64,000 bases of DNA from Ignavibacteriota bacterium (GTDB lineage Bacteria > Bacteroidota > Ignavibacteria > Ignavibacteriales > Melioribacteraceae). Below are positions 24,430 to 59,757 of the stretch, in pieces. The translations under genes and the position numbers were made by a program. The notes under the pieces were generated by a model, which was not told the origin of the DNA, did not search any database, and worked only from the letters and a program-made list of their open reading frames with translations. The stretch lies in contig JABFGH010000021.1 of NCBI GenBank assembly GCA_013112585.1, positions 1 through 64,000 of the forward strand, written 5' to 3'. The first letter of the stretch is position 1; the number at the start of each line of letters is the position of its first letter.

Positions 24430-26307
24430 ATGAAGAAAATAATAACATTATTAGTTTTTTTATTAGGGCTTTCAGTGAGCCAGGGTCAGTGGAAAAGTAT
24501 TGCACATTATGATAGGATGGCATCTTCGGAGGACCCTGCAACCATGCCTTGGAATATAACTACCAAAGCAACTTACGCCGGAATTAGATCTGTTCTTGTC
24601 ACAGATGATTTAGATGGAGACGGAAAACTTGAGATAATTGCTACTGATTACTCTAACGGCGGTCGTGTTCATGTTTTTGAATATGTTGGCGATGGAAATT
24701 TAGAATTAGTTTGGAGTGCCCCGGATAATCTTGTCACTCCTCATACGGAAAGTAGTCCAAGATGGGTTCAAACTGGTGATCTTGATGGTGATGGAGACAT
24801 GGAGATAATTTTTCCGGTTGGACCAAGATATGAACTTGGGAAACTGGTAGTTTTTGAGTACAAGGGTAGTGATAACGACTATGGTACTGCACCTGCGCTA
24901 ATTATGGAGGCAGATCAGTTTGTGGCTACGGATGGTTTAGGAATTTTTAGGTCTGATAGGGAAAGAGGTACAGTCTTTGACTTTGATAGTGATGGAAAAG
25001 ATGAATTAATTTTTTCAAATGAGGATAAAAATGTATATATTTTTGGTGTAACTGGAAATATTGGTGGATTCGCGTCATGGAATATTGAAGGTGGAGACCC
25101 AATCATTAATCCGATAAATGGTTTATCGGCAGGCAGTCATATGCAATCAATTCCGGTTGATTATGACGGTGATGGCGTTAAAGAAATTGTTAACCATCAC
25201 TGGGCGTATTATGGATTCTGGTCAATCGAACCATCAGGGACTAATCAATACGATTATCCATCCGCACCAAATCCATCAGGAGTATTGGGGCCAACATATT
25301 ATGAATTTTATAAAACTAGAAATAAAGATGCTACCGCATTCATGGGGTTAGCAGTTGCTGATGTTGATGGTGATGGTAAAGAAGAAATTGCGGGTCTGGC
25401 ACATTCTACTTTGGATGTAACTTTGATTAGCCAGCCTTTTGGTGCTGTTGGTGTTGATGTTTGGGATGACTCGGCAAAGTGTTCAGTCATTGGATCAAGA
25501 AGTGATTATGGACTATCATCGTCCTCTTCGTTTTGGGGCTTGTATGCAGCTGATCTTAATAATAATGGAAAGGATGAAATATTAGTTGGCGGATTTTATG
25601 GCGAAAATGTTCTGTCCTTTGAATATTCTGGTGCTGGGGATATATTGGATTCAACAAGTTATAATGTATCTACTGTTTACACAGGAGAACCAGAAGATCA
25701 GTGGGAATGGTTGGAGGTTACAATTCGTGATTCAGCAGGTTTATTTGATACAAGTTACTCTAAAGGTGCATGGGGAAATCCTGGTGTTATGAAAATGTCG
25801 CATGGCGATATTACAGGAAGCGGTAATTATGAACTCGTTTTAGCTCTTCAGCAGGACCCTCCATATGATTCTACTGCTTACACATACCAGTCTTGGGATG
25901 GAAGTGCATTTGTTGAAGATTCGGTGATCAACAGACTTAGACCACGAAGTGTAAATTTAAGAATTATTAGTAAGGACGGACTAACTGGTGTTTATGAAAA
26001 TTTGGATTTGTCACTTGTTACCCCTGATGATTATGTTCTAGAACAAAATTATCCAAACCCATTTAACCCTACTACAACAATTAATTTCTCACTTCCATTA
26101 GATAAACAAATTTCTTTAACAGTTTATGATGTACTTGGAAAAGAAGTTAAAACATTGCTTGATAATGAAGACCTGAAAAAAGGTACATACCAGGTAACTT
26201 GGGATGGAACAAATAATTTCAACCAAAAGGTTGCAAGCGGAAATTACATATATACACTTAGGTTTGGTAATTTCTCAAAATCTGCTAAAATGACTTTACT
26301 AAAATAA
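24430..26307 (+). CDS. FG-GAP/VCBS repeat protein with T9SS sorting domain
   Basis: A 625-residue secreted protein with a signal peptide of about 19 residues. At least six FG-GAP type calcium-binding repeats are visible (DDLDGDGKLEIIA, GDLDGDGDMEIIF, FDFDSDGKDELIF, VDYDGDGVKEIV, ADVDGDGKEEIAG, ADLNNNGKDEILVGG), forming an integrin-like propeller. The T9SS tail begins at EQNYPNPFNPTTTINFSLP. AGGAG lies upstream of the ATG. The gene is followed by a strong terminator, so it is a single-gene unit. Surface adhesion or carbohydrate binding is typical of such propellers, but the ligand is unknown. Confidence 0.92.
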   Translation: MKKIITLLVFLLGLSVSQGQWKSIAHYDRMASSEDPATMPWNITTKATYAGIRSVLVTDDLDGDGKLEIIATDYSNGGRVHVFEYVGDGNLELVWSAPDNLVTPHTESSPRWVQTGDLDGDGDMEIIFPVGPRYELGKLVVFEYKGSDNDYGTAPALIMEADQFVATDGLGIFRSDRERGTVFDFDSDGKDELIFSNEDKNVYIFGVTGNIGGFASWNIEGGDPIINPINGLSAGSHMQSIPVDYDGDGVKEIVNHHWAYYGFWSIEPSGTNQYDYPSAPNPSGVLGPTYYEFYKTRNKDATAFMGLAVADVDGDGKEEIAGLAHSTLDVTLISQPFGAVGVDVWDDSAKCSVIGSRSDYGLSSSSSFWGLYAADLNNNGKDEILVGGFYGENVLSFEYSGAGDILDSTSYNVSTVYTGEPEDQWEWLEVTIRDSAGLFDTSYSKGAWGNPGVMKMSHGDITGSGNYELVLALQQDPPYDSTAYTYQSWDGSAFVEDSVINRLRPRSVNLRIISKDGLTGVYENLDLSLVTPDDYVLEQNYPNPFNPTTTINFSLPLDKQISLTVYDVLGKEVKTLLDNEDLKKGTYQVTWDGTNNFNQKVASGNYIYTLRFGNFSKSAKMTLLK

Positions 26308-26363: not shown

Positions 26364-26942
26364 ACAGTGTCCCGCCGAGCCGCTTCAGATTTAATTTTAA
26401 CATTATCTATTATTTTTTTTGATTCTCTTTCATCTAATTAAAGCTTGGGTTTTTAGTAAAGTATGTAATGTTGTAGAACAAAGAGAAATCAATCGTTACT
26501 GCGGTTAATCAGATGTTAAAAAAACCGGAAGGGGGTAGCACTCTTATACTATGTGCTTTGGGTATCTCTACTTAGCGGTCTTCGTGTTAAAGGCTTTTGA
26601 ACGCAGAGTTCGCAGAGATAAAAATATGCAAAGAACGCAGAGAGAAGATTGTAGTAACCTAAACATAACCGGCACACCGTTTTCTAATTTACCCTTATTC
26701 TCATCGAGGCACCGACTTAAAAATTAACTTTTCGTATTCAGAGTATGATGAAAACCGGACAGATTTTTTTACTGTTCAAAAATTTTAACATTAAATATTC
26801 AAATAAGTTTTGTAAGTCTTGTATTATTTTTATTTAATTTATATTTTCATGGCAGCATAATTAATTTCAATTGACAAGATGCAGAACTGCTTACCGCAAA
26901 ACACATACGTCAAAGCTTTTTCTTCTAACAACGGAGGAGCGA
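26364..26942. other. Intergenic region before the TonB receptor
   Basis: About 580 bases. Positions 26590-26655 contain CGCAGAGTTCGCAGAG followed by AACGCAGAG, an interspersed repeat type seen in many genomes. The rest is AT-rich. The 3' end carries the ribosome binding site GGAGGAG for the receptor gene. No gene was supported. Confidence 0.5.
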
Positions 26943-29720
26943 ATGAATAAAAGATTTACTTACCTAATCTTCATTTATTCACTATTTATTTTTAACATAT
27001 CATTACTTGCCGGAACTACCGGAAAAATTGTAGGAACCGTAATCGATGCCGAAAACGGCGAACCATTGCCGGGTATTAATATTATTATTGAAAATACTAC
27101 AATGGGTGATGCAAGTAATATCGACGGAAACTATCTTATCAATAATGTTCCGCCCGGCAGTTATACTGTTACAGCTTCCGGAGTCGGGTTTGGAAAAATC
27201 TCTTATACAGGTGTTAAAGTTAATGTAGACTTTACAACGAAGCTCGACTTTGAAATGACCACAGATGTAATTTCTGTTGAAACAGTTGTGGTCGAAGCAA
27301 AGACTCCGCTTATAAGGGAAGACTTAACTTCCTCCTACACTCAAATTGATGCCGAACAAATTGAATCATTACCGGTTGAAAGCATTAACCAAATTTTAAC
27401 ACTGCAGGCAGGCGTTACCCAGGGTGTAGGCGGTGAACTGCACATACGCGGCGGGCGTTCAAACGAAATCGCTTACTCGGTTAACGGTGTTTCAATTTCA
27501 AACCCCTACAACAATTCCAGAACAGTATCAGTGGCAACTAATGCAATTCAAGAACTTTCTGTTGTAAGCGGTACGTTTAATGCCGAATATGGAAACGCTC
27601 TCAGTGGTATTGTAAATACCGTAACTAAAGAGGGGGGGAATGATTATAATGGAAGTCTTTCATTTTACACCGGCGATTACTTAAGCGGCAACGATGATAT
27701 TTTTTATAAAATTGATGACTTTGATTTATTGAATGATGCCGTTACCGAAATGACTTTAAGCGGACCGGTTCCGTTATTAGAAAATAAAATTTCCTTTTTT
27801 GTTTCAGGAAGAATGGTAAACGATAAAGGCTATCTAAACGGAATAAGGCAGCATGTAATTACCGATTCGGTAAAAAGAGATTCATTCAATCCGAGCAACG
27901 TGCAGATAGCTGCTAACGGAGATAATGAAATTGTTGCAATGAATTCGGGAGATTCATACAGTACAACAGGTAAACTTACTTTCAAACCGTTATCAACATT
28001 AAAAATTAATTTCGATGCCCTGTACTCTAACTCAAAATATCAAACATACAATCACGATTTGAAGTACAACCCTGATGCAAACAACACTACACGCAGCTGG
28101 GGATTGTTGAATATTTTGGAAGTGCGGCATGCAGTAAGCAACTCTACTTTTTATACATTGCGGGGTTCCTATAATATTGATGACACAAAGCGATATCTTT
28201 TTCCATTAATGTATAGCGACGGTTCAGAAGCAAGTTTTTATGCAGGTAAATCTTTAGATGGTTTAATGCCCGATCCAAGATATCAGCCGGATTATAAATC
28301 AACCACCCGCGGAGCTCCTTTATCATTCAGCTCGGGCGGCACGTTTGAAGGAGGTTCACAATCGCATTTCTACCAGCGTACAAAAATTCTCGGTGCTAAA
28401 TTCGATTTGACAAGTCAGCTAAGTATGCAGCACGAAGTTAAATTCGGCGGTCAGTTAAGAATGTACAATATTGCATCTCACTATTTTGAAATATTGAGAG
28501 ATACTACAAACTTTCTGCAGCCCGTAATACCAAACAGTAATACAACACGTAATAACTTCTACGAGAAAAAACCTTTTGAGTTTTCAGTTTATCTGCAGGA
28601 TAAAATGGAATTTAAAAGTTTTATTATAAACGTTGGCTTACGTTATGATTACTTCAAAGCGAAATCCCAATACTCAACAAATATATTTTACCCAACACCG
28701 GATCAAACCGGAATACCATCCACAATCGATAAATCATCATTGCTTGCTAATGCAGAAGCTAAGCAGCATTTAAGTCCAAGGTTCGGTGTCTCATTTCCTA
28801 TAACTGATAAGGGAATTATCCATTTCAGTTACGGTCATTTTTATCAGCTTCCTCCGCTCACTTACTTGTTTGCGAATTCTGAATACGAGTATAGTTTGGG
28901 AACACCGACTTACGGTAATGCCAATTTAAATCCTGAACGAACTGTTTCATACGAAATTGGATTACAGCAGCAGTTGTTTGAATCACTTGCGTTCAATGTT
29001 ACCGGATATTATAAGGATGTAAGAGATTTGCTGGCTGCTCAGCAAATAAGAATTAGCGGTGATCAAACCTACTTTACTTATGTGAACAAAGACTATGCAA
29101 ACATCAAAGGTATTGTGTTCTCACTTGTTAAAAGAAGACTGCCGAATGACCTATTTGGTTTTACCCTAGACTATACATTCCAAACTGCTGAAGGTAATGA
29201 TGTCAACTCAGATGCTTTCTTCTTAGACCTATCATCAGGAAGACAAAGTGAAAAAATTCCTGTATTCCTTGGCTGGGATAAAACACATCAGCTTAATGCT
29301 ACTATATCTATTGGTGAACCTAAAAATTGGAATGTTACACTCGTCGGTAAAATTGGTACCGGTCTCCCTTACACACCGCAGGTATTTGATAAACAAGTAT
29401 TTCTAAAACCAAATTCAGATAGACGTCCTGCAATTTCAACGGTTGATCTATTAGCAGAAAAGAGTTTTGATATTTACGGATTTGAGCTGACAGCATTTAT
29501 GAAAGTATTCAACCTACTTGATATATTAAATGAGAATATAGTTTACTCAAGCACCGGAAGGTCTTCGTACACATTAGATGAAACACGCGGACCTGCTTTA
29601 GAAACAAACAGATTAGCTGAAATTATTCCCGAGTTAAAAACAGCCCAAGAGGTTTATACAAACCCGGCATATTACTTACCGCCAAGGCAGGTAAGATTAG
29701 GTTTATCCATATCATTTTGA
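26943..29720 (+). CDS. TonB-dependent outer-membrane receptor
   Basis: 925 residues from the ATG at 26943, which has a strong site (GGAGGAG) six bases upstream and begins a signal peptide (MNKRFTYLIFIYSLFIF...LLAG). A carboxypeptidase-regulatory-like beta sandwich follows (GTVIDAENGEPLPGINIIIE, about 27-105). A plug domain comes next (QINQILTLQAGVTQ..., LHIRGGRSNEIAYSVNGV, about 130-240), then a 22-strand-type barrel ending in LGLSISF with the terminal Phe of outer-membrane proteins. It imports a ligand using TonB energy. The following two genes form a unit with it. No SusD homologue is present, so the substrate class is not indicated. Confidence 0.93.
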   Translation: MNKRFTYLIFIYSLFIFNISLLAGTTGKIVGTVIDAENGEPLPGINIIIENTTMGDASNIDGNYLINNVPPGSYTVTASGVGFGKISYTGVKVNVDFTTKLDFEMTTDVISVETVVVEAKTPLIREDLTSSYTQIDAEQIESLPVESINQILTLQAGVTQGVGGELHIRGGRSNEIAYSVNGVSISNPYNNSRTVSVATNAIQELSVVSGTFNAEYGNALSGIVNTVTKEGGNDYNGSLSFYTGDYLSGNDDIFYKIDDFDLLNDAVTEMTLSGPVPLLENKISFFVSGRMVNDKGYLNGIRQHVITDSVKRDSFNPSNVQIAANGDNEIVAMNSGDSYSTTGKLTFKPLSTLKINFDALYSNSKYQTYNHDLKYNPDANNTTRSWGLLNILEVRHAVSNSTFYTLRGSYNIDDTKRYLFPLMYSDGSEASFYAGKSLDGLMPDPRYQPDYKSTTRGAPLSFSSGGTFEGGSQSHFYQRTKILGAKFDLTSQLSMQHEVKFGGQLRMYNIASHYFEILRDTTNFLQPVIPNSNTTRNNFYEKKPFEFSVYLQDKMEFKSFIINVGLRYDYFKAKSQYSTNIFYPTPDQTGIPSTIDKSSLLANAEAKQHLSPRFGVSFPITDKGIIHFSYGHFYQLPPLTYLFANSEYEYSLGTPTYGNANLNPERTVSYEIGLQQQLFESLAFNVTGYYKDVRDLLAAQQIRISGDQTYFTYVNKDYANIKGIVFSLVKRRLPNDLFGFTLDYTFQTAEGNDVNSDAFFLDLSSGRQSEKIPVFLGWDKTHQLNATISIGEPKNWNVTLVGKIGTGLPYTPQVFDKQVFLKPNSDRRPAISTVDLLAEKSFDIYGFELTAFMKVFNLLDILNENIVYSSTGRSSYTLDETRGPALETNRLAEIIPELKTAQEVYTNPAYYLPPRQVRLGLSISF

Positions 29721-29746
29721 TGATAATCTTTACTGGAGATTTTAAT

Positions 29747-32700
29747 ATGAACAAAAAAATTATATCGTGCGTCATTCTTCTTTTAATAGTTTCAATGACG
29801 GTTATTAATGCTCAAGTTGATACAAGAAAAGAGAAAACTGAACGTGAGCATATTGCAGTTAAAGAAGCAATGCGGCAGATAATGTCTCAATACCCTGTTA
29901 ACAAAAATGAAGATGGCAATGAGACAGAAAAAATTGACGAATCAATAATTTTCGGAACATCATACCACAAAACAAGCGGTGCCGAGGATAGAAAAAATTA
30001 TTTGATGAACGGTAATAGAATTACTGTTGAACTTTATAACTACGGCGGCATTGGTCCTGGTTATGGATTATTAAGAAATGTTAACAATTTTGTTTGGAGA
30101 GATCTTGGCTATCTTTTTCAGTTCGGACCAATTGTTGGGGCATTAGTTCAAGAGGAAGGTAAAGAGGGGAAAACTGCAATTATTTCCGATGGCTTGAATG
30201 ATTACACAAGCCCGCTGCTGCAGGAGGTTAACCCGGCAGATTTTACTGAAAGATGGCAATGGCAGCCGCTGCCAGGTTATGCAGATCCGGATCAGCCGCA
30301 CATGGCAAGTAACCCCGCGGAAGATACTGACGGTGACGGCAAACCCGATAGCTGGCCCCGTGATTGGTACAATGAAACATTAGGTCAATATGTGTGGCCC
30401 GGTTTCTTATCACAAAATGTAACAAATGCCGATCAGGAAGTATATTGGGCAATGGATGATAGAGACAATATTGAATTTAATTATTTTCCATTTGAAAACG
30501 ATAGAAGCAGAAAAGGGCTTGGTCTGCAGGTTGACGGCAGAGCTTTTCAGTGGAGTAACGCACTTGCAGAAAACACAATCTTTTTTGTTTATACAATTAC
30601 TAACGTAAGCAGCAAGCCGCTCGATTCAGTTTTCTTCGGCATTTACGGTGACCCGGATGTTGGAGGCGGTTCACCTGAAAATACCGATGATAACGGTTTC
30701 TTCGTGCCGCCTTACTCACTTGATACTGTTGATGTTGAGAACGTACCTGTTTATGCGAGAAGCATGGTTTACTTTTTTGATCCTGATAAAGAAGGACCTT
30801 CTGGATTGCCGCTCGGTTATCTCGGCTGTAAGTTTCTCGAAAGTCCCGGTAATTCCACAGATGGAATTGACAACGACGGTGATGGAATGATTGATGAAAG
30901 TCAGGAAGATAACATTGATAATGACGGCGACTGGAACCCTGCTATTCATGATGTTGGACTTGACGGAATACCTAACACAGGTGACTTTGGTGAGAATGAC
31001 GGCATTCCCACTGCAGGCAACGCACTTCCCGATGGTTCCCCGGATCCGCTTTCACCCGGCGAGCCAAACTTTGAGTTTACCGACCTTGATGAATCTGACC
31101 AGATTGGTTTAACAAGTTTTAACAGTTGGACTTGGAATCAGGATAAAATCTCAGACGACCAATCAATGTGGAATAGATCTATTCCCGGTAACTTTGGTGC
31201 AATTCAGCAAAATACCGACTTAGTTTTTATTTTCGGTTCAGGTTATATTTCATTAGAGCCGGGTGAAACTAAACGAATTAGTATGGCACTTATTTGCGGT
31301 GAAGATTTAGATGATCTTTTAATTTCTGCAGAAGTTGTACAAACAATTTATAACCAGAACTATCAGTTCTTCAAACCGCCTATAACACCAACTGTAAGCG
31401 CTGTTCCGGGTGATAAAAAAGTTACATTATATTGGGATACAGCGGCAGAAGAAAGCATTGACCCTATTACCGGAAAGGATTTTGAAGGGTATGTTATTTA
31501 TAGAAGTACAGATCCAACTTTTGAAGATATTCAAGTTATTACAGATGGAAAAGGCTCAAGCTTTTTGAGCGAACCTCTTAAAGACCTTGACGGCAATGAA
31601 GCGAAATGGGATGTTGATTTTAGACCGGAACCATTTGAAGACCTTAATGGCGACGGAATATATAATCCCGGCGAACCTTTTACCGATTGGGACGGAAACG
31701 GATCTTGGTCGAGTAGGGTTGAAGACCCATGGAAAGGTTATCACCCTGTCGCGTATCAGAGAAGAGGTATTCAATATTATCTTGGTGATAACACCGGGTT
31801 GGTTCATTCATTTGTTGATTCCAATAATGTGGTTAACGGGCAGACTTATTACTATGCTGTTGTTGCTTACGATCATGGTGATTCCAACGGTATCCCTGTT
31901 TCTGAAACGACTAAAAAAATTACGCAAGACCCCATCACTTCAAAATTTACGTTCGGTAATAATACTGTGCAGGTAATTCCCGGTCCCAGAAGCAGCGGCT
32001 ATGTCAATCCTAAAGTTAATGAAGATAATATTGCGCATGTTTCAGGCAGAGGTACAGGAGATGTTGAATTTAAATTGCTGAATGATCTATCAGTAAAGGA
32101 TGATGGTAGTTACCTAATTACATTTGCAGATTCGCTTATTTTAAATAATAATAAAATTAAAAGGAAAAATTATTCTTTACTGAATAACTCATTTATTGAA
32201 CAGGAATTTCCGCTGTACGGTACCAAGTTTACTACACTTGCCAATAGTTATATTTCTGAAGATGAACCTGTGACTGTTAAATCCACGGATGGTACTACTT
32301 ATACCGAGGGAACGGATTATATAATAAACTATAAGCAGGGGTCAATTAAAAGAACAGAAAATAGTCCGATGCAGGATGGCGGACAGTTTAATATCAGTTA
32401 TAAATATTATCCTATTTTTGAAAGCACACTTTTAGATGGTGATGATGCCAATCCTGTTTTTGACGGAATTGCATTAACTATTGTTGATGAAGAAGCACTT
32501 GAAATAGATGATGAAAATACCGGCTGGATTTCAGGAAATACCAATATACTTTCAAATATTAAAGTTTCTTCGATTGGTGGCGGCAGAAAATACCCAGCCG
32601 ACTATGAAATTATTTTTTCATCGCAAAATATTGATTCAGCTGGAACCTTATTAAACGGTCTGGTTACAATACCTGTAAACTATACTGTAAATGAAATTAC

Positions 32701-33328
32701 TACAGGAGTTCCCAAGCGATTAAACACATTTTTAAATCAAAACGACCCTGCTGATAGTTTATGGCAGCCTGGTGAGTCAATAATAATATTTACACCTTAT
32801 GCAACTGGTCTAGACAGTGATAGTCTTACTTGGGAGATAGTACTTTTTGCACCAACTGATACATTAGAAAACGGTGACCCGGTTCCTGTTGTGATGCCGA
32901 CCGATGGCGATGTGTTTCAAATAAAAACATTACGCCCGTTTAATCCCGCTGATAAATTTCAACTAACTACCCAAGGCGGCAAGCTGAGTAACGAAAACGC
33001 AAAATCTGCGCTTGATGATATTTATGTAGTACCTAACCCTTATGTGGGCTACAACGAAATTGAACCACGTGCTACTTTACCGGGACAGGTGAGAGGGGAG
33101 AGAAGAATATATTTTGAAAATCTGCCTTCGGAATGTACGATAAGAATTTATACATTAAGCGGAACGCCTGTTGCTGAAATTGAACACGAATCAGGTGCCG
33201 AACATGGCAGAGCATTTTGGAACCTGCTTAATACTGATGGTTTCGGAGTAGCTTACGGTGTTTACATCGCTCACATTGATGCACCGAACATAGGTGAAAA
33301 AATTCTAAAATTTGCTCTTATTAAATAA
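29747..33328 (+). CDS. Large secreted multidomain protein with T9SS-like C-terminus
   Basis: 1193 residues from the ATG at 29747, chosen because CTGGAGAT precedes it and a signal peptide starts there (MNKKIISCVILLLIVSMTVI). Acidic calcium-binding-like clusters occur at about 375-400 (GIDNDGDGMIDE, NIDNDGDW). Fibronectin III-like regions follow (ITPTVSAVPGDKKVTLYWDTA). The C-terminal 100 residues (YVVPNPYVGYNE ... SGTPVAEIEHES ... GVYIAHIDA) resemble a divergent sorting tail. Such proteins commonly follow a TonB-dependent receptor and precede a PorV/PorQ protein in this lineage. Its function is unknown. Confidence 0.85.
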   Translation: MNKKIISCVILLLIVSMTVINAQVDTRKEKTEREHIAVKEAMRQIMSQYPVNKNEDGNETEKIDESIIFGTSYHKTSGAEDRKNYLMNGNRITVELYNYGGIGPGYGLLRNVNNFVWRDLGYLFQFGPIVGALVQEEGKEGKTAIISDGLNDYTSPLLQEVNPADFTERWQWQPLPGYADPDQPHMASNPAEDTDGDGKPDSWPRDWYNETLGQYVWPGFLSQNVTNADQEVYWAMDDRDNIEFNYFPFENDRSRKGLGLQVDGRAFQWSNALAENTIFFVYTITNVSSKPLDSVFFGIYGDPDVGGGSPENTDDNGFFVPPYSLDTVDVENVPVYARSMVYFFDPDKEGPSGLPLGYLGCKFLESPGNSTDGIDNDGDGMIDESQEDNIDNDGDWNPAIHDVGLDGIPNTGDFGENDGIPTAGNALPDGSPDPLSPGEPNFEFTDLDESDQIGLTSFNSWTWNQDKISDDQSMWNRSIPGNFGAIQQNTDLVFIFGSGYISLEPGETKRISMALICGEDLDDLLISAEVVQTIYNQNYQFFKPPITPTVSAVPGDKKVTLYWDTAAEESIDPITGKDFEGYVIYRSTDPTFEDIQVITDGKGSSFLSEPLKDLDGNEAKWDVDFRPEPFEDLNGDGIYNPGEPFTDWDGNGSWSSRVEDPWKGYHPVAYQRRGIQYYLGDNTGLVHSFVDSNNVVNGQTYYYAVVAYDHGDSNGIPVSETTKKITQDPITSKFTFGNNTVQVIPGPRSSGYVNPKVNEDNIAHVSGRGTGDVEFKLLNDLSVKDDGSYLITFADSLILNNNKIKRKNYSLLNNSFIEQEFPLYGTKFTTLANSYISEDEPVTVKSTDGTTYTEGTDYIINYKQGSIKRTENSPMQDGGQFNISYKYYPIFESTLLDGDDANPVFDGIALTIVDEEALEIDDENTGWISGNTNILSNIKVSSIGGGRKYPADYEIIFSSQNIDSAGTLLNGLVTIPVNYTVNEITTGVPKRLNTFLNQNDPADSLWQPGESIIIFTPYATGLDSDSLTWEIVLFAPTDTLENGDPVPVVMPTDGDVFQIKTLRPFNPADKFQLTTQGGKLSNENAKSALDDIYVVPNPYVGYNEIEPRATLPGQVRGERRIYFENLPSECTIRIYTLSGTPVAEIEHESGAEHGRAFWNLLNTDGFGVAYGVYIAHIDAPNIGEKILKFALIK

Positions 33329-41860: not shown

Positions 41861-44242
41861 ATGAATAAAAATATATTAATACTGCTGACCGTAATCAGCA
41901 CTTCCTTATTTGGTCAATACCAGGAAGAGAATAACGGTTATTTGAAAAATCCCGTAAAATCAAATGCAGGAATTATTGCTGCAAATAATTTCGGTTCTTC
42001 AATATATTTAATTGATAAAGATAAAATTGAAGAGATTGCAAAGTCGCCGGGAGTAGGCATGTATTATACCCTTGCCGGCAGCAAAAGGAAATTAGGTGTA
42101 AAAATAATAACTGATGATGGATTGCAAATACCGGCTATAATAAATTTAGAAGATAGAGCCGAGTATCGTTTATCGAAGCCTGTTAAGCAATGCGGTCAAA
42201 TAAGCTTTGCTGATGATGGAACTGCGGCTTTTACTATAGGTACAAAGTTAATAACTATAAACGGGGAAGTCGAAACTGAGCACGAACTTAATGTTTACTC
42301 TAACATTGCACCAATTTCACCTAATGGCAAATTTGCTGCTTATAATGATCTCTCGGATCAAATCTGGTTATTAGAATTGGAAAATAATTCTCGTGCAAAA
42401 ATATCAAATGATAAACGGGGTTACTTTAATCCAAAATGGAACAGGGATGGCGGATTGTTGATGTTCTCTTCTTTAAGTGATGAGATATATGTTTATTCAC
42501 TTCAAGATCAAACTTTAACCTTTATTGATGAAGGCTCGGAACCGGAGTGGTCAAATGACGGATCATCAATCATCTATTATAAAAAAGAGATTGAAGGGCA
42601 GAGGTTAATTAATTCTGATTTATTTATAGCTTCTTCTAACGGCAAAAGTATTTATCGGTTAACCAATACAAAAAACATTTTTGAAATGGATCCTTCTTTC
42701 GGTAAAACGGATAATGAAATTATCTACCACACATACGGCGCACGAGAAATTGTTCAATCAAAAATAACAGAAACAAAAAAAGTTATAGAACCAAAAGTTA
42801 TTTATAAAGGTGATAAATTAGAGATAAAACCAATTGTATATAGAATTAGTTCAAGTACCGAATCTCTATTAAATATACCTTACGTAAATCAGGTATATGA
42901 TACGCCCGATTGGCATAACGGGCATTGGTCATGTGCACCTACGGCAGCAATAATGGTAATAGCCTATTTCAATGCTCTGCCTCGTTGGGAAACTTGGTGT
43001 TCATATCCATCACCCGGTCATAAAAGTTATTATGGGCGCTATGTAGTTGAGCGATACCGCTACTATCAAAATGATTATCGATCTACCGCCGGTGATCCAG
43101 GCGGATATCCTACTCAGGGCGGTTATGGTTTTATGTGGAGCAGCGGGAGTCCGCATACAAAAATGAGGAGCTATTACGACAAGCATAGAATAGGTGCAGT
43201 ACAAGATGAGAACCCGACTTATAGTGAAATGCTAAATGAAATTAATGCGGGATATCCTTATACAATGTGTGTAATGCTTACAACCGCGGGTCATTTAATT
43301 ATTGCAAACGGGCTTTTTATGGACCATACAATTTCGTTTAATGATCCTTATGGAAATAAAAACACTCCCGGCTACCCAAGTTATGATGGTAAAAATGTTA
43401 GGTATGATTGGCCCGGTTATAATAATGGCTACCAGAATTTAACCGGTGTTGCATGGTGCATTACTAATCATAGAACAGTTGCTGAGCAGGCTGATACTTT
43501 AGTAGATGATTTGCAATTTGAAAAAGGCTTTTACCTTCACAACAGCGGGTTGGCTTCTATGGATATGTGGCTTGACTATAACGGCGGCTACAATGATCAT
43601 TTCTGGTATAAGAAAACCACGTCAAATTATCCGGTGGATACCTGCTTTGCTGCATGGACTCCTTCATTAGATAAATCGGGTTTGTACAGGGTATCAGCCT
43701 ATGTTGCATTCAGTAATGCAGAAGCAGCGCTTTACAAAATTTATCACAACGGCATGGTTGATACAGTAACAATAAATCAAAGTTTGTTTAACGATGAGTG
43801 GCTTACAATTGGTGAATATGAATTTGATGCAGAAACCAATGAGTATGTTCAGCTTGGTGACGCAAGCATTATTCCGAATCAGGAAATTGTTTTTGATGCC
43901 GTAAAGTTTGAGTATATAGATTCTGCTGCAACATCTGTTGATGTTGTTGAACCGCTGATCTCAAAAGAATATCAGCTATATCAGAATTATCCAAATCCAT
44001 TTAATCCATCAACAAACATTAAGTTTTATTTGCCGAAGAAAACTAATGTAAAAATAAATTTGTATGATGCGCTTGGAAATTTATTAACAAATATTTTTAC
44101 AGGTGAAAAATCTGCCGGAACACATTCATTTAATTTTAGTTCAAAAAATATCAATAACAATGAATTGAGCAGCGGTGTTTATTTTTTACAAATGAATGCA
44201 GGTACTGTTTCCAAGAGTATTAAAATGGTTCTTTTAAAATAA
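41861..44242 (+). CDS. T9SS-sorted C39-like peptidase with propeller and golvesin domains
   Basis: 793 residues with a signal peptide (MNKNILILLTVISTSLFGQ). About 40-300 looks like a TolB/PD40 propeller (FNPKWNRDGGLLMFSS, EPEWSNDGSSIIYY). About 340-540 is a peptidase C39-like domain with catalytic Cys358 in HWSCAPTAA, a His in TAGHLIIANG and the FNDPYG motif. About 550-690 is a golvesin C-terminal-like domain related to that of the 34534 protein, and the T9SS tail starts at QNYPNPFNPSTN. It is probably a surface cysteine peptidase. Substrate unknown; peptidoglycan peptides are suggested only by neighbours. Confidence 0.85.
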   Translation: MNKNILILLTVISTSLFGQYQEENNGYLKNPVKSNAGIIAANNFGSSIYLIDKDKIEEIAKSPGVGMYYTLAGSKRKLGVKIITDDGLQIPAIINLEDRAEYRLSKPVKQCGQISFADDGTAAFTIGTKLITINGEVETEHELNVYSNIAPISPNGKFAAYNDLSDQIWLLELENNSRAKISNDKRGYFNPKWNRDGGLLMFSSLSDEIYVYSLQDQTLTFIDEGSEPEWSNDGSSIIYYKKEIEGQRLINSDLFIASSNGKSIYRLTNTKNIFEMDPSFGKTDNEIIYHTYGAREIVQSKITETKKVIEPKVIYKGDKLEIKPIVYRISSSTESLLNIPYVNQVYDTPDWHNGHWSCAPTAAIMVIAYFNALPRWETWCSYPSPGHKSYYGRYVVERYRYYQNDYRSTAGDPGGYPTQGGYGFMWSSGSPHTKMRSYYDKHRIGAVQDENPTYSEMLNEINAGYPYTMCVMLTTAGHLIIANGLFMDHTISFNDPYGNKNTPGYPSYDGKNVRYDWPGYNNGYQNLTGVAWCITNHRTVAEQADTLVDDLQFEKGFYLHNSGLASMDMWLDYNGGYNDHFWYKKTTSNYPVDTCFAAWTPSLDKSGLYRVSAYVAFSNAEAALYKIYHNGMVDTVTINQSLFNDEWLTIGEYEFDAETNEYVQLGDASIIPNQEIVFDAVKFEYIDSAATSVDVVEPLISKEYQLYQNYPNPFNPSTNIKFYLPKKTNVKINLYDALGNLLTNIFTGEKSAGTHSFNFSSKNINNNELSSGVYFLQMNAGTVSKSIKMVLLK

Positions 44243-54186: not shown

Positions 54187-54246
54187 TTGGTAGAGGAGTT
54201 CAATAATAATAAACTTTATTCAATAACTATTTTATTTGAAATTGAA

Positions 54247-55290
54247 TTAAGCTGAATAGGGCGGGCTGAAATACTTTTTACGAAGCTTTAATGCAATATT
54301 CACCAAAAATATTAATACCGGCACCTCAACAAGAGGTCCAATTACAGCGGCAAATGCTTGTCCGGAATTTATACCAAACACAGCAATAGAAACAGCTATT
54401 GCAAGCTCAAAATTATTACTAGCCGCGGTAAATGAAAGTGTAGTTGTCTTTGGGTAATCGGCACCTAATTTCTTACTCAAATAAAAACTTATAAAAAACA
54501 TTATTACGAAGTATAAAACCAGGGGTAAGGCAATTCTTAAAACATCGAATGGAATCTTAACAATTAATTCACCTTTTAGTGAAAACATAACAAAAATTGT
54601 AAATAGTAAAGCTATTAGTGTTATGGGACTAATTTTAGGAATGAACTTACTTGAATACCAATCTTTACTCTTTATCCTAATTAATAAAAATCGAGTTGCC
54701 ATTCCCGCAATGAATGGGATACCGAGATAGATTAAAACACTTTCAGCAATTTCTCCTATTGATATATCAACAGCAAAACTTGTAAGCCCTAACCAATTTG
54801 GCAGAATGCTTAGGAATACGTAAGCGTAAACTGAGAATAATATGATTTGAAAAATTGAATTAAATGCAACCAATCCGGCAGCGTACTCATTATCTCCACA
54901 TGCGAGATCATTCCAAACAAGAACCATTGCAATACAGCGCGCCAGTCCTATAAGTATTAAGCCCGCCATATATTCAGGATAATCCTGCAAAAATATTACC
55001 GCAAGGATAAACATTAGCAGTGGTCCAATCAGCCAGTTTTGAACGATGGAGAGAGAAAGAATTTTTATGTCTTTAAAGGCATCGCCAAGTTCTTCATATT
55101 TTACTTTTGCCAGCGGGGGATACATCATCAGGATCAATCCAATTGCAATTGGAATGTTTGTAGTGCCGGATTGAAAGTTGTTCCAGAAATCTGCGACAGA
55201 GGGGAACCAGTATCCTGTAAACACTCCTGCAAACATTGATAGAAAAATCCATAATGTTAAATATTTATCTAGAAATGATAAATTTTTCAT
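54247..55290 (-). CDS. acr3: Arsenite efflux transporter, ACR3 family
   Basis: 347 residues with ten predicted membrane helices. The conserved region [33 protein letters not shown] carries the essential cysteine of ACR3 pumps. It exports As(III), or the As(III)-thiol species made by ArsC, across the inner membrane. It is the last gene of the arsR-arsM-arsC-acr3 operon, eight bases after arsC. Confidence 0.95.
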
Positions 55291-55298
55291 AATAGTGT

Positions 55299-55718
55299 TC
55301 AGTTAATTTTTAGAGATTTATAAAATGCAAGAAAGTCAGTTTTTATTTCATCTCTTATTTTTCTAAAAACAGCAAGAATCTCTTCTTCTGTTCCAACTGC
55401 ATCGGCAGGGTCATCAAAACCTATGTGAAGAGTTTTACCGACTTTACCCAAAAAAGTTGGACAAGTTTCTTTGGCATTATCGCATACAGTAATAACATAA
55501 TCAAATTCCTCTGATAAATATTCTGCAACATCCTCGGGCTTGCCATCACTAATATCTATTCCTACTTCTTTCATCACCTCAATTGCTTTAGCACTAACTG
55601 AACTTGCCGGGTTTGTTCCTGCCGAAAAAACTTGAAGCGATGAATCAAATGATTTTAAAAATCCCTCCGCCATTTGGCTGCGGCATGAATTACCTGTGCA
55701 GAGAATTAGTATTTTCAT
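55299..55718 (-). CDS. arsC: Thioredoxin-coupled arsenate reductase
   Basis: 139 residues of the low-molecular-weight phosphatase type. The P-loop cysteine is in [14 protein letters not shown], and the two redox cysteines are in [12 protein letters not shown] (CX6C), the pattern of the Staphylococcus pI258 enzyme. It reduces As(V) to As(III) using thioredoxin. It lies between arsM and acr3 in one operon. Confidence 0.95.
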
Positions 55719-55733
55719 TATTGTACCTATTTT

Positions 55734-56549
55734 TTATTTAACTGCAACAACTGTTATGCTGTAAATTCCTGTGGCTGATTCTCTAAACTTAGCAGTTTCT
55801 TCCTTACTCAGATGCTCTAAAAGCATTTCATCAGTCAATTCTATTTGTCGGGATTTTTTCACCTCAATATTATTGAAACCCACTGATTTAATAATATTCA
55901 AATAATCATTCTCTTGCTCCGCTCCCGAAACACATCCTGCATACATTGCAGCAGCATTTCTTATATTTTCAGGCAGTTCACCTCTCAGAACAATATCAGA
56001 GACACAAAAATGTGCTCCCGGTTTAAGTATTCTATATATTTCCTCAAAGGCTTTCTTTTTATCAGGCACTAAATTAAGTACGCAATTACTTATAACAACA
56101 TCAGCAAGATCATCATTTAGTAGTATATTTTCTATCTCGCTTAACTTGAACTCGATATTCCTAAACCCAAGTTTTACAAGGTTTTGATTAGCTTTAGTTA
56201 CCATATCTTCGGTCATATCAATTCCAATTACTTTACCTTTATCGCCAACTATGGTTCTGGCAATAAACACATCATTTCCTGCACCGGAACCAAGATCAAC
56301 TACCGTATCTCCTTCATTTATTAATGCATGCTCCGTCGGCAGTCCGCAGCCTAAGCCTAAGTCGGCATCTTTAACATAGCCCTTCAATTCCGTATAATCA
56401 TCATTGAATACAGTATAGTCAACTTCCTTGGAATTGTTACAGCAGCTTGTTTCTGTTTTGGGAGCACAGCAGTCCGATTGTAGGGAGGCAGATGCAATTT
56501 TAGAATATTTATCTTTTACTATTTTTTTAATTTCGTCTGAGGTATTCAT
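55734..56549 (-). CDS. arsM: Arsenite S-adenosylmethionine methyltransferase
   Basis: 271 residues from the ATG at 56549, which has GGAGAA five bases upstream. The SAM-binding motif is VVDLGSGAGNDVF. The three arsenic-binding cysteines lie in GLGCGLPT, ISNCVLNLV and YAGCVSGAE. The N-terminus also carries two CC pairs (SDCCAPKTETSCCN) that may bind metal. It methylates As(III) to volatile or less retained species. Ribosome site and reading position reject the longer start at 56570. Confidence 0.94.
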   Translation of the reverse strand: MNTSDEIKKIVKDKYSKIASASLQSDCCAPKTETSCCNNSKEVDYTVFNDDYTELKGYVKDADLGLGCGLPTEHALINEGDTVVDLGSGAGNDVFIARTIVGDKGKVIGIDMTEDMVTKANQNLVKLGFRNIEFKLSEIENILLNDDLADVVISNCVLNLVPDKKKAFEEIYRILKPGAHFCVSDIVLRGELPENIRNAAAMYAGCVSGAEQENDYLNIIKSVGFNNIEVKKSRQIELTDEMLLEHLSKEETAKFRESATGIYSITVVAVK

Positions 56550-56563
56550 AAAATTCTCCAATT

Positions 56564-56881
56564 TTAACATTTACAAACATTTAATAATAATTTATCAAAT
56601 AATTTTTTTGCTTTATTAATTGCCTTACTATCAATACAATAACAAACTTTTGGTCCTTCAATTTGTCCTTTTATCAATCCCGCTTTTTTTAATTCCTTCA
56701 AATGCTGTGAGACGGTTGACTGGGAAAGCGGAAGTAATTCAACAATATCTCCGCACATGCAGACATTCATATCGACTAGAATATTTAATATTTTTACTCT
56801 TGCCGGATGGGATAAAGCTTTAGCAATTTTCCCAATTTCAATTTCTTCTTTCGAAAATAATTCTTTTTTTGAATAAGCCAT
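56564..56881 (-). CDS. arsR: ArsR-family arsenic-responsive repressor
   Basis: 105 residues from the ATG at 56881. The winged helix has recognition helix LPLSQSTVSQHLKELKKAGL. The metalloid site is a CxC in NVCMCGDIVELL, which matches the classical CVCDL site. It represses the operon in the absence of As(III). AGGAAAG precedes the start. An earlier in-frame ATG at 56932 would lie inside the operator and is rejected. Confidence 0.94.
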   Translation of the reverse strand: MAYSKKELFSKEEIEIGKIAKALSHPARVKILNILVDMNVCMCGDIVELLPLSQSTVSQHLKELKKAGLIKGQIEGPKVCYCIDSKAINKAKKLFDKLLLNVCKC

Positions 56882-56898
56882 AATCTTTCCTATTGTAT

Positions 56899-56933
56899 AT
56901 CGTAAATATACGATGTAGAATTTATTTGTCAAA
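56899..56933 (-). promoter_or_regulatory. ars promoter with overlapping ArsR operator
   Basis: On the complement, TTTG (56933-56930) and TATATTTA (56910-56903) are 19 bases apart, close to TTTG-N19-TAnnTTTG. A 16-bp palindrome ATCGTA-TATT-TACGAT at 56914-56899 covers the -7 box, so repressor binding would block RNA polymerase. Confidence 0.7.
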
Positions 56934-57170: not shown

Positions 57171-58703
57171 ATGAAATCAAACATCAAACTATCGCGAACT
57201 TTACCTGCCATTATTATTCTTGCATTTATTTTCTTTAATGCATGCACAACAGAAGAGCAGCCGAAACAAAAAATTACAGATGTTATACTAAGTGATAAAG
57301 ACAGTTATTTTTATGTTGATACATCCGCTTATCCCAAAGAGAGGAGGAGGTTACCGATTGGAGTATTCGATTCAGGCACAGGCGGACTTACAGTGCTTGA
57401 TGCTATTGCAAATTTTGATAATTACAATAATTTAACTAAGTCTTTATCTTCAAGTAGTGATAATGTACGAGACTTTCAAGAAGAGTATTTCATTTATTTA
57501 GGCGATCAGGCAAATATGCCCTATGGGAATTACTCAAAAGAGAATAAAGTTGATCTGCTTAAAGAACATATTATTAAAGATGTTCAATTTTTGCTCGATA
57601 AAAAGTATTACGATTCCCAAGCGGCTGCAAGTTTTGAGAGTGACAAGGAGCCCGTTAAAGCAATTGTAGTTGCCTGCAACACTGCTACTGCTTACGGATT
57701 AGAAGAGATTAGGGAGTTTATGTCAAACTCTGGGTTAAACTTGCCCGTGATAGGTGTAATTGATGCCGGAGTAAAAGGAGCGTTGAGTACAATAGGGAAA
57801 GATGAGAATGCGACTGTCGGCATTATGGCTACTGCAGGAACAGTTTCATCCAAAGGCTATGTAAAAGCATTAAATTATTGGAAAGAAAAATATGGTTATG
57901 AAGCTGATATAACTGCATTTCAGCAAGCGGGTATTGGACTTGCCGGTGCAATTGACGGCGCCGCTAATTACATTAATAAAAATGCCGAATTGTTACGAGA
58001 AGATTATAAAGGTCCGGCAGTAAATAATTCTGAAGCACAAATTGATATTACTATTTTAGACCGATATGATTTTAACCGGAATGGAAATGAATTACTTACT
58101 AAGGGTGATAAATCTGATATGGAGGATATTCAAATTAATTCCGTTCAAAATTATATTAAATACCATGTAGTTTCACTGCTGGAAAAAATCAGAAAATCTG
58201 AAACTAATAATAAACTTACTTCAATTATTTTGGGCTGTACTCACTATCCGTATTATATTAATGACTTTAAAGCTGAGTTTAATAGGTTATATAATTATAA
58301 AGAAAATGGAAAGAATGTTTATCGCAATTTTATGAATGAAGATATTGATTTTATTGATCCTGCAGTCAATACATCAAAAGAACTATTTGAATATTTGGCA
58401 GAGGAAGAATTGTTCAACAATAGTGATATAAGTAAAAGTGAATTTTATATTAGTGCAGCGAATAAGCATAATAAAAATAATATTCTTGATTCAGCCGGCT
58501 TGTTCCCTTATGAATATAAATATGGACGAAATGCCGGATTCATTCAGGAATACGTGAGACGGCTGCCATTCAGCAAGCAATCGATCGATGATGAAATCGC
58601 AAAACGATTAGAAGAATCTATTCCATTCACGTTTAGTTTGATTAGAGAATTTAACCGCAGCAATAAAAAAATGAACTTCTTGAAAGAGAATGAAAAATTG
58701 TAA
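57171..58703 (+). CDS. Lipoprotein glutamate/aspartate racemase homologue
   Basis: 510 residues from the ATG at 57171. The N-terminus is a lipoprotein signal (RTLPAIIILAFIFFNAC, Cys25). The mature part carries every glutamate racemase motif: IGVFDSGTGGLTVL (67-72 DSGTGG), first catalytic cysteine Cys169 in VVACNTATA and second Cys356 in LGCTHYPYY. The protein is nearly twice the usual 265 residues because of insertions, including about 75 extra residues between the two cysteines. Ordinary MurI is cytoplasmic and supplies D-Glu for murein. An exported form would interconvert glutamate or aspartate outside the inner membrane. The substrate is inferred. The DUF389 gene follows by 28 bases. Confidence 0.88.
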   Translation: MKSNIKLSRTLPAIIILAFIFFNACTTEEQPKQKITDVILSDKDSYFYVDTSAYPKERRRLPIGVFDSGTGGLTVLDAIANFDNYNNLTKSLSSSSDNVRDFQEEYFIYLGDQANMPYGNYSKENKVDLLKEHIIKDVQFLLDKKYYDSQAAASFESDKEPVKAIVVACNTATAYGLEEIREFMSNSGLNLPVIGVIDAGVKGALSTIGKDENATVGIMATAGTVSSKGYVKALNYWKEKYGYEADITAFQQAGIGLAGAIDGAANYINKNAELLREDYKGPAVNNSEAQIDITILDRYDFNRNGNELLTKGDKSDMEDIQINSVQNYIKYHVVSLLEKIRKSETNNKLTSIILGCTHYPYYINDFKAEFNRLYNYKENGKNVYRNFMNEDIDFIDPAVNTSKELFEYLAEEELFNNSDISKSEFYISAANKHNKNNILDSAGLFPYEYKYGRNAGFIQEYVRRLPFSKQSIDDEIAKRLEESIPFTFSLIREFNRSNKKMNFLKENEKL

Positions 58704-58731: not shown

Positions 58732-59757
58732 ATGGCATTAAGAATAATTGAAGTTAAAATTCCGGAAGAAGAAAAAGAAAAGATCACAGAGTTGTTAGAA
58801 GATGATGCGATCATTGAATCATGGACGGACCAGGTAATGGATAAATATATTTTGGTTCGAATACTTTTACAAGCCGAAGACACAGAAAGCTTACTTGATA
58901 AACTCGAAAAGAAATTTAGTTTTACTGAAAAATTTAGAGCAATACTTTTTCCGGTTGAAGCTACAATACCAAAAATTGTACTTGCAAAACCTGAAGAAGC
59001 AGAAGTTGTTGAGATAGAGGAAAAAACTGAAGCAAAACAAACTCCGCTTAGAATAAGCAGGCAGGAACTTTACTCGCAGATATCTGACGGTACAAAACTT
59101 ACAAATATTTTCATTGCAATGGTTGTTCTTTCATCAATTGTTGCAGCAATTGGTTTAGTTAAGGATAATGTTGCAGTGGTAATTGGAGCAATGGTTATTG
59201 CACCATTGCTTGGTCCTAATGTGGCTTTGGCATTAGCAACAACACTTGGTGATTTTGACTTAGGGAAACGTGCATTAAAAGCAAATATAACAGGAGTTGC
59301 TATTGCATTGCTCTCTGCAGTTGTACTTGGAATATTGCTTCAGGTAGATTTAACATCAGGTGAATTAAAATCCCGAACATTTGTTGGTCTCTCTGATATT
59401 GCATTGGCAATTGCATCAGGCGCGGCAGGGGCTTTAGCTTTTTCAAGCGGTGTATCGGCTTCTTTAATTGGTGTGATGGTGGCTGTGGCATTGCTGCCGC
59501 CGCTTATGGCTTTCGGATTGCTTCTCGGTTCAGGGTACTATTCTGAAAGTTTCGGTGCGTTTCTGCTTCTGGTTACAAACTTAATTTGCATTAACCTTGC
59601 CGGTGTTGTTACCTTTATTGTGCAGGGAATTAGACCAAGAAGATGGTGGGAAGCCAAAAAGGCAAAAAAGGCTTCCCGGTATGCAATTATTATATGGACG
59701 ATTCTACTTATACTTTTAGCGGCAGTTATCATTGTTTCACAAGAAAATTTATTTTAA
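58732..59757 (+). CDS. TIGR00341/DUF389 membrane protein
   Basis: 341 residues. A cytoplasmic N-terminal domain (residues 1-100) is followed by about six membrane helices with the family signature VVIGAMVIAPLLGPNVALALATTLGD and SGVSASLIGVMVAVALLPPLMAFG. The function is unknown. A transport or osmolyte role has been suggested for some relatives. It is likely cotranscribed with the racemase. The final four bases overlap the convergent HEAT gene. Confidence 0.9.
   Translation: MALRIIEVKIPEEEKEKITELLEDDAIIESWTDQVMDKYILVRILLQAEDTESLLDKLEKKFSFTEKFRAILFPVEATIPKIVLAKPEEAEVVEIEEKTEAKQTPLRISRQELYSQISDGTKLTNIFIAMVVLSSIVAAIGLVKDNVAVVIGAMVIAPLLGPNVALALATTLGDFDLGKRALKANITGVAIALLSAVVLGILLQVDLTSGELKSRTFVGLSDIALAIASGAAGALAFSSGVSASLIGVMVAVALLPPLMAFGLLLGSGYYSESFGAFLLLVTNLICINLAGVVTFIVQGIRPRRWWEAKKAKKASRYAIIIWTILLILLAAVIIVSQENLF

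Follow-up and report, generated by a model that had tools for sequence, protein, structure and literature searches.

Glutamate racemase is a cytoplasmic, often essential enzyme of cell wall synthesis and a drug target. Two broad-spectrum racemases that work outside the cytoplasm are of another kind: BsrV and the Alr of Pseudomonas putida are periplasmic, PLP-dependent enzymes of the alanine-racemase fold and are not relatives of MurI. In the accessible text of the papers on these enzymes (PMC7890096, PMC6034422), the part on P. putida mentions cell fractionation and describes the Alr as preferring Lys and Arg. Publications on an exported, periplasmic, secreted or lipoprotein glutamate racemase were not found in the PMC literature searched, most subscription papers being beyond reach. 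The closest described relatives of the protein reported here are the MurI/RacE enzymes (TIGR00067; RacE1, 2dwu, and RacE, 1zuw), with which it shares the fold, both catalytic cysteines and the DSGxGG, PYG, CNT, TxxT and GCTHYP motifs. It differs from them in being about twice as long, in having a putative N-terminal signal and four insertions, in carrying an Asp at the position of the helper Glu, in forming a separate clade and in scoring below the equivalog cut-off. Because of the signal, we refer to it as the exported form.

Two further systems are relevant because of what they do or encode rather than because of homology. The Tat-type L-Ala-D/L-Glu epimerase would also turn murein D-Glu into L-Glu outside the cytoplasm, but its fold is unrelated (enolase type) and, according to the family name, it acts on a dipeptide. 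RmNag3 is an N-acetylglucosaminidase that combines a GH3 and a beta-lactamase domain; in the accessible text of the paper that describes it, it has a signal peptide, its authors deduce that it participates in periplasmic peptidoglycan turnover and R. marinus is given as being without AmpG (PMC6987092). Turnover as proposed around RmNag3 would leave stem peptides outside. The architecture of RmNag3 is that of the hydrolase encoded between AmpG and the racemase in three of the loci described below (L026, L030 and L032); RmNag3 matches a partner of the racemase and not the racemase itself.

Results

The window, i.e., the whole stretch of 64,000 nucleotides that was analysed, comes from a genome that is 99.97% complete (G000) and encodes, at positions 57,171-58,703 of the plus strand, a glutamate-racemase homologue of 510 residues (P0001) that starts with an ATG at 57,171, has Pfam and NCBIfam matches and was modelled with AlphaFold. 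A sequence-only reading of this DNA had proposed an exported and intact glutamate racemase, and the open reading frame, its length, Cys25, the DSGTGG loop, Cys169 and Cys356 were all found as it had described them. Membership of the Asp/Glu racemase superfamily follows from the match to Pfam Asp_Glu_race (PF01177; 42.4 bits, the cut-off being 31) and from the presence of both cysteines in the CNT and GCT motifs. However, the match to the NCBIfam model TIGR00067 (glut_race) reached 104.2 bits, which is below the equivalog cut-off of 146.65, and two further exported members scored lower still (90.4 and 83.8 bits), so that the specificity of these proteins could have shifted. The solved relatives of P0001 that were found by sequence comprise 23 distinct sequences, every one of which is named glutamate racemase.

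The MurI active-site residues examined are conserved across the full-length rows aligned. The DSGTGG loop (residues 67-72; 57,369-57,386, plus strand) and the two catalytic cysteines, Cys169 in the ACNTATA motif (57,675-57,677, plus strand) and Cys356 in the GCTHYP motif (58,236-58,238, plus strand), contribute to a set of residues, D67, S68, P117, Y118, G119, C169, N170, T171, T221, T224, C356, T357 and H358, that was unchanged in all 16 full-length rows of the exported form. In the alignment, each of the 16 rows carries an Asp where MurI has its conserved helper Glu; in P0001 this is Asp262, which falls within a stretch of the model with a pLDDT under 50 (residues 258-263, the other such stretch being residues 149-151). 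The AlphaFold model, which was built on 11 homologues, has a mean pLDDT of 82.5 and a pTM of 0.84, and its predicted fold is that of MurI: the best structural match was RacE1 (2dwu_B; Foldseek E 7.1e-16; VIA Z 26.6, rmsd 2.5), and the VIA alignment covered 259 residues against a target of 266. P0001 is longer than the genome's own MurI by roughly 53 residues at the N-terminus and by four insertions, of about 19, 16, 63 and 18 residues, which follow positions 77, 141, 262 and 366 and agree with the large insertions that had been claimed. The longest of them (residues about 263-325; 57,957-58,145, plus strand), which was placed by alignment to MurI, is family-specific and rich in invariant residues, including G281 and P282, R298 and Y299, and N323 and S324. 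The word "fusion", which had also been applied to this protein, proved to be inappropriate, as no extra domain was found, just the N-terminal signal and insertions inside the MurI fold.

Residues 1-24 (57,171-57,242, plus strand) have the features of a signal peptide: they include three Lys or Arg and no Asp or Glu, their best 12-residue mean Kyte-Doolittle hydropathy is 3.0, and residues 2-24 form a single helix in the model. The hydrophobic core ends at Cys25 (57,243-57,245, plus strand), the putative lipidated cysteine, which is invariant in the 11-row family alignment. The lipobox of P0001 had been called clear; this held for the hydrophobic stretch and for Cys25, but not for the FFNAC motif as a whole, whose Asn at position -2 fails the strict PS00013-type pattern. 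This pattern was passed by 11 of the 17 exported-family rows compared to none of the 29 other racemase rows. Moreover, a Cys at position 17-29 behind a hydrophobic stretch was present in all 16 full-length exported rows, the stretch being weak in G498 (best 12-residue mean of 1.71) and reaching 2.0-3.3 in the remaining rows, and none of the 11 canonical MurI rows had a Cys at positions 13-45. A start downstream of the signal had been named as an observation that would speak against export. Scanning codons 2-70 in frame revealed no ATG, GTG, TTG or CTG, ATT alone being present, and therefore no ordinary downstream start that would yield a cytoplasmic protein keeps the catalytic Asp67. The signal-like N-terminus and the conserved active site agree with the initial proposal, and the sequence strongly supports the view that a MurI-type enzyme is exported in intact form. 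A lipid anchor on Cys25 is probable, with a lipobox that is imperfect at -2.

Among the 97 genomes around, and including, the window's genome, the exported form was found in 11, ten of which have a full-length gene and one of which (G010) has a fragment at a contig end; the nine other full-length members are 50-54% identical to P0001. In three further draws of genomes, which overlap, it was found in seven of 395 genomes drawn evenly over the phylum, in 12 of 391 drawn evenly over the class, fragments included, and in six of 98 around G343, one of them as a split gene. A member from a KSB1 genome (L024) is 56% identical to P0001; the other members of the exported clade belong to the window's family and order and to two other families. 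The architecture, which it had been proposed to seek in other genomes, therefore recurs: in a 46-row tree, which carries a long-branch warning, the 17 exported rows form one clade (support 100/98) separate from the 22 canonical MurI rows and six rows of a "third" paralogue. The full-length rows exclude the contig-end fragments of G010 and G756 as well as the split gene of G491, and the divergent G743 entered only the tree and the lipobox pattern test. The alignment of the 16 rows with MurI lacks the canonical MurI of G500 and G503, both of which are present in the tree, from which one "third" paralogue, L077, was left out. The dN/dS ratio was 0.08, 0.10 and 0.12 in three of four close pairs, the fourth being saturated and giving no value; with values near 0.1, the exported family is under purifying selection. 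Its patchy spread suggests loss or transfer. The G743 member (L092:3229-4584) has a hydrophobic N-terminus, fails the strict lipobox and carries LLACTHYP in place of LGCTHYP at the second cysteine.

Three other racemase-like proteins are encoded by the window's genome. An ordinary MurI of 278 residues is present on contig C9 (L001/L060), which settles the question of whether there is a second, cytoplasmic murI, and an aspartate-racemase-like protein is encoded on C17 (L002). The third MurI-like protein, of 305 residues and with no signal-like N-terminus, is encoded on C43 (L076; G000:C43:19024-19710, L076:1291-2208, minus strand) and has ITDSGLGGLSV and CCTHY motifs; similar matches of about 300 residues were seen in L072-L075, L077 and L079, and six such rows form their own clade.

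In the window itself, no murein genes were found beside the racemase gene. To its left, on the other strand, is an arsenic operon (54,247-56,932, minus strand) that encodes an ArsR regulator, the arsenite methyltransferase ArsM, an ArsC-like (arsenate-reductase-like) LMW phosphatase and the ACR3 efflux protein. Downstream by 28 bases and on the same strand is a gene for a DUF389/TIGR00341 membrane protein (58,732-59,757, plus strand), whose co-transcription with the racemase gene is possible; a DUF389 gene beside the racemase was not seen in the other loci listed. Because these neighbours are unrelated to murein, the functional reading of the window copy rests on orthology. Elsewhere in G000, a cluster of kinase, AmpG and beta-lactamase-fold genes is located on a separate contig (C11; L090), the kinase being recognised by its sequence start, and a D-aminoacylase-like gene (30% identical) is located on C4.

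In the window's family and order, an AmpG-type permease gene was found upstream of the racemase gene, on the same strand and within 10 kb, in six of the ten full-length loci, which represent three genera (G031, G053, G017, G041, G046 and G014), and was absent nearby in the remaining four. A BadF/NagK-type kinase gene precedes AmpG in five of these six loci, with Pfam support in all five, although the NagK model match for the kinase of L026 is below the cut-off; in G014, the contig ends where the kinase gene would be. In three of the six, the protein with GH3 and beta-lactamase domains is encoded between AmpG and the racemase. AmpG-like genes are present in 89 of the 97 genomes and their presence is therefore uninformative; it is their linkage to the racemase that is informative. 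Three racemase-negative loci (L106, L108 and L109) likewise have a GH3 or beta-lactamase-fold gene after AmpG. The neighbours in these relatives point to a tie between the exported racemase and peptidoglycan salvage. The idea that murein-derived D-Glu is converted into L-Glu fits such murein-fragment neighbours; the direction is one that we infer.

A different arrangement was found in family f37, where four of the five full-length loci (G343, G454, G500 and G498) have the order SusC, SusD, beta-lactamase-fold hydrolase, racemase and amidohydrolase, with a small lipoprotein gene between SusD and the hydrolase in three loci; the fifth, G503, has different neighbours. In three loci the racemase and amidohydrolase genes overlap or adjoin each other, in G498 about 150 bases separate them, and the N-terminus of the amidohydrolase appears, by eye, to be signal- or lipoprotein-like. 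Among solved structures, the G343 amidohydrolase matched a D-aminoacylase best (243 bits), followed by an amidohydrolase (208 bits), an N-acyl-D-glutamate deacylase (205 bits) and the carbohydrate deacetylase PpOngB (190 bits). From these similarities, specificity for D-Glu would be plausible, but since the family also holds carbohydrate deacetylases, the link to D-Glu is not fixed. In G010, which belongs to the window's own family, a relative of this amidohydrolase shares a 4.35-kb contig with the racemase fragment, and the solved structures nearest to it, itself a fragment, are PpOngB (80.9 bits) and the N-acyl-D-glutamate deacylase (80.2 bits). The amidohydrolase gene was present in seven of the 11 racemase genomes compared to 10 of the 86 others (Fisher p 0.0003, with relatedness uncontrolled).

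The kinase-AmpG neighbourhood is shared by six racemase-negative loci (L100-L105), which were chosen because an enolase-family gene adjoins AmpG; in these, the cluster includes an NlpC/P60 protein and an enzyme of the L-Ala-D/L-Glu epimerase type. Pfam or NCBIfam support was obtained for the epimerase of L100 and L102 and for the NlpC/P60 protein of L100, L102, L103 and L105. The L100 epimerase matched the twin-arginine (TAT) model, and the solved structure nearest to this type of enzyme is 3iji (530 bits). In the ORF lists of four other racemase-negative loci (L106-L109), an epimerase beside AmpG was absent. Since relatives can carry a Tat-signal epimerase and an NlpC/P60 protein beside AmpG, a way of dealing with D-Glu outside the cytoplasm would be in keeping with these bacteria. 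Given the six loci, mutual exclusion with the racemase would be expected. Replacement of the exported dipeptide epimerase by the racemase was, however, rejected at the genome level, because an epimerase match was found in 10 of the 11 racemase genomes, compared to 65 of the 86 others (four of the 65 being weak, about 31-34% identical). We therefore regard the racemase as an enzyme added for free D-Glu rather than as a substitute for the epimerase. Epimerase matches that cover the N-terminal signal region were found in nine of the 11 racemase genomes and in 45 of the 86 others (Fisher p 0.10). Overall, an epimerase match was found in 75 of the 97 genomes and extends over the signal region in 54 of these, so that many members of this order may epimerise D-Glu outside the cytoplasm.

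Discussion

In this study, we consider it rather probable that P0001 belongs to a distinct family of exported, probably lipid-anchored MurI-type racemases that convert free D-Glu from murein into L-Glu outside the cytoplasm. For this family, we infer export in vivo, lipidation, the substrate and the net D to L direction. Exported hydrolases of the amidase-like, D-peptidase-like and D-aminoacylase-like types would degrade the stem peptides of murein, and free D-glutamate would be released outside the inner membrane. The exported racemase, using cofactor-free two-cysteine chemistry, would equilibrate it with L-glutamate, which could then be taken up and used by the cell. We give roughly even chances to the broader proposal of a patchily shared and undescribed branch of murein salvage: exported hydrolases would release D-Glu, the lipid-anchored racemase would turn it into L-Glu outside the cytoplasm and, in a few MurI-less genomes, the exported form would be the sole glutamate racemase. 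Nothing was found in support of two other roles that the sequence-only reading had raised, i.e., the remodelling of stem peptides, here those of the intact wall, and the production of D-amino acids as signals.

The main rival to a role in D-Glu recovery is that the exported racemase has retained the fold and acts on another substrate, such as D/L-Asp, an N-acyl or gamma-linked glutamyl residue or a dipeptide, its pocket being reshaped by the insertion of about 63 residues. We regard this as unlikely, even though members score below the MurI equivalog cut-off, this insertion holds family-specific invariant residues, and the adjoining D-aminoacylase-like enzymes come from a family that acts on N-acyl compounds. 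The examined MurI active-site residues are intact in 16 of 16 rows, and in the VIA ranking the glutamate racemases (Z 19.0-26.6) are placed above the aspartate racemases (Z up to 16.4); the lower scores of the other racemase folds would nonetheless be compatible with another substrate for P0001. Markedly less probable is that the N-terminus is merely a membrane anchor with the catalytic part in the cytoplasm, or that the protein is an inactive relic. The non-canonical -2 position in the lipobox of the window copy would agree with this, but the Cys behind a hydrophobic stretch is kept in all 16 rows, dN/dS is about 0.1 in three pairs, and the proteins encoded by partner genes in the operons of relatives start with signal-like sequences (judged by eye, and by the TAT model for L100).

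The reverse direction, L to D, with D-Glu made outside the inner membrane to serve in signalling, in a D-Glu polymer or as a re-imported wall precursor, also in genomes without MurI, seems to us the least probable of all, if only slightly so. Racemases are reversible, and the distribution of MurI could be read in this way: of the 17 carriers of the exported form, 13, including the window's genome, have a MurI over the cut-off, and the four carriers without one (G343, G454, G498 and G491) all belong to f37, where they make up four of the six carriers. However, MurI over the cut-off is also missing in 14 of the 54 non-carriers of f37 (Fisher p 0.06), one of which has a partial match, and the neighbours of the racemase look degradative. 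The exported copy as the cell's source of D-Glu was accordingly kept only as this low-probability rival, in view of the same 14 MurI-less non-carriers. D-amino-acid-aminotransferase-like matches of at least 130 bits were found in three of the four MurI-less carriers, in 11 of the 13 MurI-less non-carriers searched and in five of 11 genomes with MurI; as they occur widely whether or not MurI is present, and as none of the 28 genomes has one over the family cut-off, they are weak evidence on the source of D-Glu. Most of the MurI-less genomes of f37, carriers and non-carriers, are near complete.

That an exported family is conserved and keeps its active site implies that racemase chemistry probably has a use outside the membrane as well, in all likelihood in the recovery of D-Glu from murein. 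The salvage route suggested here consists of a NagK-like kinase, AmpG, a GH3 or amidase-like hydrolase, a D-aminoacylase-like enzyme and the racemase, and can be tested gene by gene. It is worth mentioning that the annotation "glutamate racemase" need not imply wall synthesis, as four of the 17 carriers are without a MurI over the cut-off.

Additional Observations

Two other parts of the window deserve mention. Three intervals (24,430-26,307, 26,871-33,328 and 41,861-44,242) hold a TonB-dependent receptor, followed by a protein of 1203 residues for which Pfam gave no match at E 0.001; type IX-like C-terminal sorting domains are present in two proteins of these intervals. At 54,203 to 53,203, on the minus strand, a RES-domain protein and an adjacent Xre/MbcA/ParS-type antitoxin are encoded, which are likely to form a toxin-antitoxin pair.
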